Assembly (NCBI RefSeq): GCF_023016005.1
Contig: NZ_JALKAZ010000001.1
Coordinates: 2,108,001 to 2,172,000, forward strand
Length of the DNA: 64,000 bases
Direction of reading: 5' to 3'
Origin: Erythrobacter sp. F6033
GTDB taxonomy: Bacteria > Pseudomonadota > Alphaproteobacteria > Sphingomonadales > Sphingomonadaceae
Part shown: one piece after another, positions 13,845 through 16,638 of the stretch
Layout: every line of letters begins with the position of its first letter
How positions within the stretch are numbered: the first letter of the stretch is position 1
The notes under the pieces: generated by a model
Databases searched by the model: none
Seen by the model: only the letters and a program-made list of their open reading frames with translations
What the model was told of the DNA's origin: nothing
Made by a program: the position numbers and the translations under genes

Positions 13845-13881
13845 TGCCCAAAATTTAGGCAATGGTATACATGACAAAGCA
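13845..13881 (+). repeat. Left terminal inverted repeat of the IS1595-type element
   Basis: It reads TGCCCAAAATTTAGGCA (the outer 17 bp) and continues inward to GTATAC and TGACAAAGCA. Reverse-complemented, it aligns with the right end over 36-37 bp, with a perfect 10-bp inner block TGCTTTGTCA, a shared GTATAC and three mismatches plus one indel outside them. Confidence 0.88.
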
Positions 13882-14020
13882 ACGAATCGAAGAAATTGAG
13901 GTTACGCCTGAGATGATTGAGGCGGGGATTTGTTCTCTCGAGCAGGGTCTCGAGGCACTGCCCGCTGCTTCATTGGTTTTGGAGGTTTATAAAGCCATGG
14001 CCGCTGTGCGGCCTCTATAG
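13862..14020 (+). CDS. Small ORF (52 aa) beginning inside the left inverted repeat
   Basis: ATG at 13862 (or 13871), stop TAG at 14018-14020. The translation contains EVTPEMIEAGICSLEQG and ends VYKAMAAVRPL. The VTPEMIEAG...VxKAM layout resembles short hypothetical proteins widespread in alphaproteobacteria, which argues that it is real. Its 3' part runs antisense to the last ~40 codons of the HEPN-like gene, whose tail is low-complexity there. No strong Shine-Dalgarno sequence precedes either start. Function unknown. Confidence 0.5.
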   Translation: MVYMTKQRIEEIEVTPEMIEAGICSLEQGLEALPAASLVLEVYKAMAAVRPL

Positions 14021-14504
14021 TGTTCTGGTACTGAGCGGATTCAATGAGATCGGGCCTCTCACATTCAATCCAGAATTTCACAAGGCAGGCGTTTAGCGTG
14101 ATCGCATCAGATTCAAGGTCATCAAGGGCTTTTATAGAGATCGTATGCTTAAACGCTCTCGCGCTGAAATTTTTGTTTTCATCTGTGACAATCGCTTTTC
14201 CGTCTTCGAAATTTATTCCATTGTGCAACAGGCGGTCACGTATTTTCGTTATTTCCCCGATCCGTTCAAATGCTCGCTCTAGATCATTAGGTACCAGTTG
14301 GCCGCTGGCAGAATAAAATCGCTTAATGGTATCCGCTGCTCCGCGAACACGAACGCCAGAGAATAGCACTTTAGAAGTCAACACTGAGGTGCCTGAGACA
14401 ATCCGGAGTATCTGGTGCATAGTGGCCTCGATCTCGGCGTACCGATGGACAAATTTGCCGAGCGCATACCAATAACCTGCGAAAGAGTGATCTGGGAAAT
14501 CCAT
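13902..14504 (-). CDS. HEPN-like passenger protein of the IS element, unknown function
   Basis: About 200 residues, predicted largely helical. The start YALGKFVHRYAEIEATMHQI and the later TKIRDRLLHNG (Arg89-x4-His94) fit the RX4-6H motif that HEPN-type nucleases and their relatives use as active site. HEPN domains are frequent in toxin-antitoxin, Abi and CRISPR effectors. The last ~45 residues are Pro/Lys/Arg-rich and overlap a plus-strand ORF. I prefer the ATG at 14504 over a GTG at 14513. That start shares a CATG with the divergent ORF at 14503. Base composition looks AT-richer than the flanking argC. Ribonuclease activity is inference from one motif, and it could equally be an inactive helical protein. 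Confidence 0.65.
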   Translation of the reverse strand: MDFPDHSFAGYWYALGKFVHRYAEIEATMHQILRIVSGTSVLTSKVLFSGVRVRGAADTIKRFYSASGQLVPNDLERAFERIGEITKIRDRLLHNGINFEDGKAIVTDENKNFSARAFKHTISIKALDDLESDAITLNACLVKFWIECERPDLIESAQYQNTIEAAQRPWLYKPPKPMKQRAVPRDPARENKSPPQSSQA

Positions 14505-14634
14505 GAAAAACACCGATCAAAAAGAGAAAGAAGTGCTTAAGCGGATGTTGCGGACACCGCCTAAACCAAAGGAAAAGAAAAGGGGGGCAGGCCCGAAAGC
14601 CCACCCCACTAAAAGTCAGAAAAGTTCGGCCTGA
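14503..14634 (+). CDS. Small basic ORF (43 aa) within the IS element
   Basis: ATG 14503, stop TGA 14632-14634. The product is Lys-rich with VLKRMLRTPPKPKEKKRG. The LxRMLxTPPKPxK pattern resembles tiny alphaproteobacterial hypothetical proteins, often phage- or plasmid-borne, which is my reason for listing it. A weak GGGA sits upstream. Its start codon overlaps that of the divergent HEPN-like gene, and its 3' end overlaps the end of the HTH gene by 19 bp. Function unknown. Confidence 0.4.
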   Translation: MKNTDQKEKEVLKRMLRTPPKPKEKKRGAGPKAHPTKSQKSSA

Positions 14635-14810
14635 TTGGGGTCAGTCCCGCGCTTCCCAGTTTTCACTTCGGACACACGTCCTTGGTTCCAACCAAGATCG
14701 GCTGCAATGTCATGCTGAAACTCGCCACTGGCGAGCCTTTGCTTAACTTCGCAGAAGATTTCAGGAGAGTATGGTGCCCTTTCTGGGCGTTTGGGTCGTA
14801 CAAAAATCAC
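14616..14810 (-). CDS. Small helix-turn-helix protein within the IS element
   Basis: A 64-residue protein. GTG start at 14810, preceded by a strong AAAGGA about 8 bases upstream, which decides the start. The central segment (KQRLASGEFQHDIAADLGW, then RVSEVKTGKRG) reads as a helix-turn-helix of the homeodomain/resolvase-like type, suited to DNA binding. It lies 42 bases downstream of an array of hairpins on its own transcript strand and upstream of the HEPN-like gene in the same direction, so it may control that gene or the element. No dimerisation domain is seen. Target unknown. Confidence 0.65.
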   Translation of the reverse strand: MIFVRPKRPERAPYSPEIFCEVKQRLASGEFQHDIAADLGWNQGRVSEVKTGKRGTDPNQAELF

Positions 14811-14851
14811 GGTTTATCCTTTCCGTGTAACGACCGGCTTGACGACGAGAA

Positions 14852-14979
14852 TCCCCTATGTGTAGATGCATGCATCACGGGGACTATCTCGCTCCTGCTA
14901 GCCGGACAAAAGTAAGCAGGAGTTGCCTCGACTAGGCCTCTGGTGTTCGAGCACCGGAGGCCTTGCCATTTGAGGCAAC
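14852..14979 (-). ncRNA. Array of stacked hairpins, candidate structured RNA or leader
   Basis: Three adjacent structures are visible by eye. The first is TCCCC (14852-14856) with GGGGA (14879-14883), enclosing the palindrome GATGCATGCATC. The second is CTCCTGCT (14892-14899) with AGCAGGAG (14915-14922). The third is GTTGCCTC (14922-14929) with GAGGCAAC (14972-14979), enclosing a 12-bp stem AGGCCTCTGGTG (14934-14945) with CACCGGAGGCCT (14952-14963). The helices abut and could stack. On the minus strand the array would form the 5' leader of the HTH gene. It does not fit tRNA or any riboswitch I know, and strand and function are inferred. Confidence 0.5.
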
Positions 14980-15085
14980 CATCCAAAACAAAACAGAAAA
15001 CTTTGCTCGGCGCGAGACGAGACTGTCTGGATTCGCGATTCAACTGGGGATAAATGCGTTCTTAGCGATTCCAGCGCTTGCGTCT

Positions 15086-15105
15086 CTCCCCAATCTTTCG
15101 GGGAG
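15086..15105 (-). other. Hairpin after the transposase gene
   Basis: CTCCCC / GGGGAG arms with an 8-base loop lie 11 bases downstream of the transposase stop (minus strand). There is no U-run after it, so an intrinsic terminator is only possible, not shown. It could also protect the mRNA 3' end. Confidence 0.4.
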
Positions 15106-15116
15106 GCTTCAACCTA

Positions 15117-16100
15117 TCAGGCTGCGACTGCGCTAGTCCGCCGATAGGTCAGGCGCTTGCCAGAGATACCCTTTAGGGCTTCGTCAGCGCGTTCAAAGTC
15201 AGTCAGCTTGCGAGTGTTGTAGCGGAAGTCGAACTCGCCAGTGTAGCGGTGCAAATGCGTTGCCGAGACGTGATGATAAACACCGATGATCCCGCGCTTA
15301 AGAATGGAGAAGAAGCCTTCAATTGTGTTGGTGTGAGAATGCTCGCCGCGCTTGTATTCGCCAAGTGAGTGCTTGACGATGCTGTGCTTACCGAACTCTT
15401 TGCCGACATTCGTATAGCCCGCATGTTCGTCGGTCATGAGGTAAGAATAGCGGTCAACGTTGGTAACGAGAGCGTGGCGCAAGGTTTCGCCAGTTACGCG
15501 CTCAACGTGGATTGAGCGGACTTTACCGCCACGTTCGACAAGCGAGACGACAGGCTGCTTGTTCGCAAATGGGGAGCGACGATTAGCCGAAAAGCGACGT
15601 TGCTGTTTGGCATTGCGGTTCTTGGACTTGCCGCCGACATAAGTTTCATCGGCTTCAACGAATTTGCCAAACCCGCCTAGCGGCTCGTTATCGGTGTCTT
15701 TCATGGCTTCGCGAATGCGGTGCATCATGAACCACGCGGTTTTATAGGTAACACCAAGCATACGCGCCATTTGATGCCCGCTGATGCCCTTCTTGGACGC
15801 ACACAGCATATGTGTAGCCAGAAGCCACTTATTGAGAGGCACCTTGGAGCGTTCAAACACGGTGCCGACTGTGACAGTGTATTGCTTGCGGCAATCATTG
15901 CACTGGACGACGCCCTTGCGGACGGTGCCGCCGGGATGCGCTTTGGTTGACTTACGCTTTTGCGGTGGAAGCCGTTTAGCGTTGTCCGATCCGCAATGGG
16001 GGCACAGCGGACCCTCAGCCCAATGAAGGGCTTCTAGGTGCTCACGTGCTGCATCTTCGTTTTGAAAGCGAGGGGCAAAAATGTCGACTGCGGTTTTCAT
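15117..16100 (-). CDS. IS1595-family transposase (ISXO2-like DDE domain)
   Basis: Full-length, 327 residues. The N-terminal zinc ribbon is formed by CPHC (33-36) and CNDC (67-70), followed by the helix-turn-helix region GISGHQMARMLGVTYKTAW. The ISXO2-like catalytic core has Asp151 (EADETYVGG), Asp224 (TDEHAGY) and HTNTIEG (Asn258/Glu261) followed by KRGIIGVYHHVS. All catalytic positions are present, so the enzyme is predicted active. It transposes the element delimited by the terminal repeats. The start at 16100 lies just inside the right repeat. It is transcribed toward the passenger genes, which are mostly on the same strand. Confidence 0.95.
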   Translation of the reverse strand: MKTAVDIFAPRFQNEDAAREHLEALHWAEGPLCPHCGSDNAKRLPPQKRKSTKAHPGGTVRKGVVQCNDCRKQYTVTVGTVFERSKVPLNKWLLATHMLCASKKGISGHQMARMLGVTYKTAWFMMHRIREAMKDTDNEPLGGFGKFVEADETYVGGKSKNRNAKQQRRFSANRRSPFANKQPVVSLVERGGKVRSIHVERVTGETLRHALVTNVDRYSYLMTDEHAGYTNVGKEFGKHSIVKHSLGEYKRGEHSHTNTIEGFFSILKRGIIGVYHHVSATHLHRYTGEFDFRYNTRKLTDFERADEALKGISGKRLTYRRTSAVAA

Positions 16101-16124
16101 GCATTATCAATGCACTGAATGCCC

Positions 16125-16160
16125 TGCTTTGTCAAGTATACAATGCCCAAAATTTAGGCA
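16125..16160 (-). repeat. Right terminal inverted repeat of the IS1595-type element
   Basis: It starts with TGCTTTGTCA and ends with TGCCCAAAATTTAGGCA at the outer tip. It lies 24 bp before the transposase start codon. On the minus strand it contains TTGACA (16135-16130), a good -35 box for transposase transcription, as is common for IS ends. Confidence 0.88.

Positions 16161-16293: not shown

Positions 16294-16638
<345 letters not shown>

Follow-up and report, generated by a model that had tools for sequence, protein, structure and literature searches.

Insertion sequences (IS) of the IS1595 family have short terminal inverted repeats (TIRs) and generate target-site duplications (TSDs) of 8 bp. 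The family reportedly includes transporter IS (tIS), which Siguier is said to have treated in 2009. ISNha5 is named as a tIS (PMC11891212). We analysed a window of 64,000 nucleotides (the whole stretch of DNA from contig NZ_JALKAZ010000001.1 of Erythrobacter sp. F6033; positions are counted from its first letter), which contains an IS1595-family element of 2.3 kb located between argC and glnB. The element resembles tIS in combining an IS1595 transposase with passenger genes outside transposition. Its own family appears to be set apart from tIS by a P-II operator target, HEPN-like cargo, cassette exchange at a start codon and a conserved tiny open reading frame (ORF).

The attachment site of Tn7, attTn7, lies at glmS. 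Tn7-like transposons (PMC8649781) share with the window element a preferred safe site as well as variable, often defence-related cargo, whereas the window element has only 2.3 kb, one transposase gene and an operator as target. Insertion sequences that target repetitive extragenic palindromic (REP) elements likewise insert specifically into palindromes (PMC1525189), yet the palindrome in the window is a putative regulatory operator of particular genes and persists next to the gene. Tn3 transposons with toxin-antitoxin passengers, including one HEPN-MNT pair, provide a parallel for RNase-type passengers in a transposon (PMC7157771). In contrast to these, no conserved cognate antitoxin gene was found in the window family, and a single main cargo gene stands behind a common CATG. 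A search by title, mostly outside subscription journals, yielded among the papers listed no published IS1595 or ISXO2 element with a HEPN passenger or with NtrC, glnB or glnK as target. The evidence below makes it quite likely that the window holds a cargo-carrying IS1595 element that targets NtrC-type operators at P-II genes, rebuilds the operator and has an exchangeable cargo bay.

Element structure and insertion site

The window element belongs to the IS1595 family, given its transposase domains, its TIRs and TSD, and its internal passengers. The element and its surroundings comprise the following features.

13858..16148, minus strand: IS1595-family element, 2291 bp, between argC and glnB, with the transposase end on the right (from TIRs, TSD and length)
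13858..13881, plus strand: left TIR GGCAATGGTATACATGACAAAGCA
16125..16148, minus strand: right TIR GGGCATTGTATACTTGACAAAGCA, as read on the minus strand
13850..13857, unstranded: left copy of the TSD AAAATTTA
16149..16156, unstranded: right copy of the TSD AAAATTTA
15117..16100, minus strand: IS1595 transposase, 327 amino acids, zinc ribbon and DDE domain (from the open frame and domain matches)
13845..13861, unstranded: NtrC-type palindrome TGCCCAAAATTTAGGCA (TGC-N11-GCA) at the argC-side junction
16144..16160, unstranded: NtrC-type palindrome at the glnB-side junction, 17 bp equal to the empty site obtained from the joined flanks
16300..16638, plus strand: glnB (P-II protein), neighbour of the target

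A sequence-only reading of this DNA had proposed an IS1595-type element with an intact DDE transposase and passengers inside the same ends. This holds, with ORFs lying between TIRs that are flanked by a perfect 8-bp TSD. The transposase frame is open and matches PF12762 (1e-37), PF12760 and NF033547 (2.8e-61) above cut-off, and the nearest named transposases in a protein search come from Erythrobacter and related genera. The same reading had given inverted ends of 36-37 bp. Inverted ends are indeed present (34 nt at 82% identity), but the TIRs proper are imperfect repeats of 24 bp; the outer part of the longer estimate consists of the TSD and the palindromic target TGCCCAAAATTTAGGCA. The element proper opens at GGCA/GGGCA. 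It is a single copy in its own genome (3.04 Mb, two contigs), and a same-genus genome (L063) contains a site resembling an empty version of the insertion site. The flanking genes argC and glnB were named by eye.

A palindrome of this type recurs at orthologous loci. Upstream of glnB, all 11 other same-genus loci read carry an AT-rich TGC-N11-GCA (shuffled sequence would give 0.07) together with a sigma54-like TGGCAC-N5-TTG, and five of the 11 carry an exact TGCC-N9-GGCA (an argC match was found in 58 of 61 genomes; 12 loci were examined, one being from the own genome). TGC-N11-GCA with an AT-rich centre is an NtrC-binding motif in Sinorhizobium, where NtrC also binds the dusB-ntrBC promoter (PMC10746234), and the core NtrC targets of Proteobacteria include glnBK, amtB and ntrBC (PMC5343134). 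Within the own genome, the pattern TGCCYWWWWWWWRGGCA occurs without mismatch only at the two element junctions. Of the three sites with one mismatch, one lies immediately upstream of a dusB-like gene (named by eye); of the 28 sites with two mismatches, one lies upstream of glnK. Based on the published motif and the NtrC-regulon neighbours (glnB, glnK and the dusB-like gene), the target palindrome can be read as a putative NtrC operator.

Target choice across the family

Element ends were resolved for 42 elements including the window element, and then for five more to a total of 47. L040, L108 and L121 were left out for having no TIR pair. A TSD was recognised in 37 of the 42 elements, the exceptions being L041, L105, L112, L117 and L022, where the left end of L022 was mis-set. 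In a maximum-likelihood tree of the 47 transposases, ten elements including the window element form one clade (support 100/96). For nine of these ten, the distance to a P-II gene (glnB or glnK), measured from the matched TIR stretch, is about 158-243 bp. The window element and L102 are located at glnB, L034, L035, L036, L037, L104 and L181 at a glnK-type gene (61-63% to the window glnB), and L183 beside a P-II gene that is truncated at the end of its contig. In the flanks examined, a P-II match within 300 bp is absent from all 37 remaining elements; L041, outside the clade, has one at 2.5 kb. Three new elements (L181, L182 and L183) were looked at after the targeting idea was formed. Among the matches listed with at least 71% transposase identity, two of the three new elements (L181 and L183) are at P-II genes and L182 is not, and the tree places L182 outside the P-II clade. 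A separate clade (99/97) formed by L024, L038, L039, L043 and L049 occupies REP-like palindromes of the CCCCGGATCAAGTCCGGGG type with a 9-bp duplication. The contrast between P-II genes in one clade and their absence among the remaining elements, together with REP-like sites in another clade, shows at the level of sequence comparison that the target follows the transposase clade.

Joining the flanks restores an exact TGC-N11-GCA in seven of the nine P-II elements, while L104 and L036 occupy a half-palindromic site TGTTT...GGCA. At the P-II-side junction the exact 17 bases are kept in all nine (L104 and L036 compared by eye), with the element tip taking the place of the half-site displaced by the insertion. 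We suggest that the transposase would insert into the AT-rich middle of TGC-N11-GCA operators upstream of glnB or glnK, and that the element tip (GGCA or GGGCA) and the 8-bp duplication would together rebuild the operator on the P-II gene side. With the operator rebuilt beside the P-II gene, nitrogen control probably persists and the insertion is probably tolerated. The kept operator may reflect target choice or the survival of harmless insertions. Mimicry of target half-sites by element tips across all clades reached 0.399 compared to 0.346 in permutations, with 8 of 2000 permutations as high and related elements uncorrected; because the effect is weak, we do not claim such mimicry as general. 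The P-II operator target is a point beyond the sequence-only reading.

Two further loci concern target sites. An unoccupied TGCCTAAAAAATAAACA lies upstream of glnK in the own genome (C1:26273, L158 middle), and its 17 bases are the reverse complement of the L036 target. At L048 (3160-8074), two different IS1595 elements are arranged end to end with a common AAGAGGCG target.

Cargo exchange and the HEPN-like passenger

Each of the 42 elements carries at least one ORF of at least 60 amino acids between the transposase and the far end, and these ORFs vary widely. Copies free of passengers, which the sequence-only reading had raised as an argument against a module, are thus not seen among them, and many genomes hold similarly arranged genes between ends of the same type, in line with the check that it had proposed. 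The closest comparison is provided by L036 and L103, whose transposases are 99% identical and whose DNA is 93.7% identical in the 1660 bp between the element end and the CATG at the passenger start. Past this CATG, the passengers have no similarity at E 1e-4. L041 and L104 have passengers that are 60.5% identical compared to 58.7% for their transposases. Among the 25 closest transposase pairs, 15 were comparable, and passenger similarity at E 1e-4 is lacking in 14 of these. These pairs show that passengers move between elements, and cassettes have been swapped behind the CATG, likely by recombination. Such cassette exchange also goes beyond what had been read from the window.

The cargo bay of the window element contains the following features.

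13902..14504, minus strand: main passenger, exchangeable, HEPN-like, 200 amino acids (RX4H motif at R92 and H97 in 203-residue numbering)
14502..14505, unstranded: CATG with the start codons of the passenger (minus strand) and the tiny ORF (plus strand)
14503..14634, plus strand: conserved tiny divergent ORF, 43 amino acids, consensus VLKRMLxTPPKPHK
14616..14810, minus strand: small helix-turn-helix (HTH)-like protein, 64 amino acids, optional (in 6/32 elements)
14584..14607, minus strand: terminator-like stem-loop 3' of the HTH gene, within the tiny ORF
14811..15116, unstranded: hairpin-rich spacer from the transposase to the HTH gene (from shuffle z-scores)
13862..14020, plus strand: small ORF, 52 amino acids, motif EVTPEMIEAG, with its start inside the left TIR

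HEPN proteins are recognised by an RX4-6H motif. The open frame of the window passenger spans 13902-14513 on the minus strand, with the likely start at 14504. R92 and H97 are invariant in the window protein and its seven aligned homologues (8/8), so the absence of conserved RX4H residues that the sequence-only reading had considered as a counter-argument was not observed. The motif, counted as R[NDH]xxxH, is present in the longest cargo ORF of 22 of 32 unselected elements (transposase at least 50% identical), compared to 2.4 expected from shuffled compositions. Among 16 passengers picked for the motif, no columns besides R92 and H97 are invariant, and the 15 others are 11-20% identical to the window protein. 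AlphaFold2 models of the window passenger (pLDDT, the predicted local distance difference test, of 80) and of the L052 passenger (pLDDT 83) have a matching order of helices and hairpin with R92 and H97 equally placed. Profile scans of the window protein matched none of the curated families. HEPN_Cthe2314 matched one of the 16 motif-bearing passengers weakly (E 0.25), RmrA of PADLOC was matched by one of the 16 at 0.019, and the L112 passenger matched PF05168 at 0.0024, below the family cut-off. A profile of the 16 passengers searched against structure chains gave weak matches only (best E 0.051). Motif conservation suggests that the window passenger is HEPN-like, and we infer that most passengers are RNase effectors by predicted activity, in defence or addiction.

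No relatives of the window HEPN-like protein were found in the viral contigs or plasmids searched, a single locus was found in the genome contigs searched, and among 298 family genomes the protein matched only its own genome. In a Novosphingobium metagenome-assembled genome (MAG), a HEPN homologue (53%) adjoins TTGCCTAAAAATTAGGCAA upstream of glnK. This locus of 10.6 kb, in which the window transposase has no match, looks like a decayed element at a site of the same type.

Passengers other than HEPN-like proteins include GIY-YIG (L035), DUF1828 (L039) and DUF3800 (L114, in a more distant group), and six of ten proteins scanned had no Pfam family at 0.01. More distant IS1595 elements (L110, L113-L116 and L119) carry opposite-strand passengers of 234-362 amino acids, the one in L114 being the DUF3800 protein. 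L046 contains a HEPN-like passenger and a 96-amino-acid protein without a Pfam match. The latter may resemble Cas2/SinR-type proteins.

The tiny divergent gene and remaining features

The passenger and a divergent ORF of 38-66 amino acids start at one common CATG in 26 of 32 elements (the placements in L049 and L109 are doubtful, and the small ORF of L105 is a diverged form). Codon variation in the tiny ORF is concentrated at third positions (0.47 vs 0.20 and 0.23 at the other two; 25 sequences). The terms of the ratio of nonsynonymous to synonymous change (dN/dS) are 0.258/0.928 for the sense frame and 0.272/0.824 for one opposite-strand frame, both low, and the opposite-strand frame is stop-free in the compared stretch. 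The sense frame is preferred based on its start, its stop and K/R exchanges. Of 199 family genomes, 30 matched a profile of the tiny ORF, and IS1595 transposase sequence is present at 25 of these 30 loci. The five loci without transposase sequence include the weakest matches. L148, L150 and L151 are weak, transposase-free matches beside HEPN-like, L043/L117-like or HNH-like genes (by eye), and may represent non-autonomous or decayed elements.

The tiny ORF is retained whether the passenger is HEPN-like, HNH-like (by eye) or of another kind. Retention with such different passengers makes a general control gene more likely than a dedicated antitoxin. The HTH gene is present in only six of the 32 elements, and in one of these six, L036, the passenger lacks RX4H. 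The conserved partner of the passenger is the tiny divergent ORF, not the HTH gene. The sequence-only reading had suggested a toxin, regulator or defence-like module, citing the HEPN protein. Of this suggestion the RX4H passenger stands, and a role of the HTH protein as partner or antitoxin is not supported.

The other genes described from the sequence, including the HTH gene and two tiny ORFs, are all present as open frames. The HTH assignment of the 64-amino-acid protein was made by eye, and the protein has no match in Pfam, NCBIfam or PADLOC. The hairpin array also proved real, as the stretch 14811-15116 folds better than shuffles (z -3.9 on the minus strand and -5.1 on the plus strand). 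An Rfam search of this stretch gave no match, and DNA matches of the window element to nine clade members cover at most about its first 65 bases (positions estimated). Terminator-like stem-loops in the region are at chance level (4 found vs 3.5 expected). A motif related to the EVTPEMIEAG of the TIR-overlapping small ORF is found in 9 of 32 elements.

Alternative explanations

The element could be a small mobile toxin-antitoxin module borne by an IS, in which a HEPN toxin has its dedicated antitoxin in either the HTH protein or the tiny ORF. The conserved RX4H motif and the toxin-antitoxin pairs of Tn3 transposons, the HEPN-MNT pair among them (PMC7157771), would fit such a module. Yet a conserved HEPN-HTH pair was rejected given how few elements hold the HTH gene, including one with a non-RX4H passenger, and a tiny ORF kept across HEPN-like, HNH-like and other passengers is unexpected of a dedicated antitoxin. 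We regard this explanation as unlikely. The passengers might instead serve the element itself by regulating transposition or suppressing competitors, with the tiny ORF as a transposition regulator. The co-occurrence of the tiny ORF with transposase sequence across passengers points in this direction, as does the proposal that Tn3 toxin-antitoxin pairs are regulatory during transposition (PMC7157771). Passengers diverge far more than transposases though, unlike a core regulator, which leaves such a service to the element similarly unlikely. A lack of any targeting, with AT-rich palindromes as general hot spots and P-II sites merely tolerated through survivor bias, seems improbable. All five members of another clade are in REP-like palindromes, and other IS families target REPs (PMC1525189), as expected if palindromes are hot spots in general. 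The P-II sites of nine out of ten clade members against 0/37 elsewhere argue that the target follows the clade, to which survivor bias may add.

The preferred reading, an operator-targeting IS1595 element with exchangeable cargo, faces several observations that weigh against it. The targeting claim covers ten elements from one bacterial family, and L103 belongs to the P-II clade but is not at a P-II gene or operator. Transposase identity alone separates targets narrowly, with L037 (67.7%) at glnK and L182 (67.4%) not. Only three of the seven exact-operator elements retain the operator at the far junction, hence the rebuilding is one-sided. At up to two mismatches, the own genome has 33 TGCCYWWWWWWWRGGCA sites compared to 26 for a reversed-pattern control, so the weaker sites are mostly due to chance. 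For the passenger, Foldseek against PDB returned nothing significant for either the window or the L052 model, and HEPN membership hence rests on the motif. Aligning profiles A1 and A3 with hhalign found nothing, and BLAST at E 1e-4 links the window passenger to none of the 29 others compared. The window protein also has no PADLOC match, for which reason a known defence family was rejected for it.

Conclusions

For an operator-targeting element with exchangeable cargo, we suggest that the stretch from the transposase to the far end would function as a cargo bay, in which the tiny divergent gene would fix the start-codon end at the CATG. Passengers, mostly HEPN-like RX4H proteins, are exchanged behind the tiny gene, likely by recombination, and RNase-type effectors in defence or addiction would pay for carriage. 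Given the common start, expression of the passenger and of the tiny gene would interfere with each other, and the tiny gene might thus be a general brake or switch and not a dedicated antitoxin. A more speculative view, which we advance tentatively and with some doubt, is that these are minimal site-directed transposons using host operators as attachment sites that are rebuilt upon insertion. Their cargo dock would allow effectors to be swapped at a start codon common to a near-universal tiny regulator gene, amounting to a target-safe and self-spreading delivery of HEPN-type RNases. In this view, insertion might also be tied to the nitrogen state through the binding of NtrC to the operator.

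Tn7 targeting uses multiple proteins, and an element of 2.3 kb whose single transposase locates one safe and conserved regulatory site would form a simple counterpart to it. Insertions into P-II operators that leave the switch readable would represent a gentle, targeted mode of DNA movement. The family may serve as a case for how a DDE transposase gains a new target, with one clade at NtrC-type operators and another at REP-like palindromes. It would also provide a cassette system, with a fixed start codon behind which effectors are swapped, as well as a supply of HEPN-like proteins unrecognised by the libraries searched.

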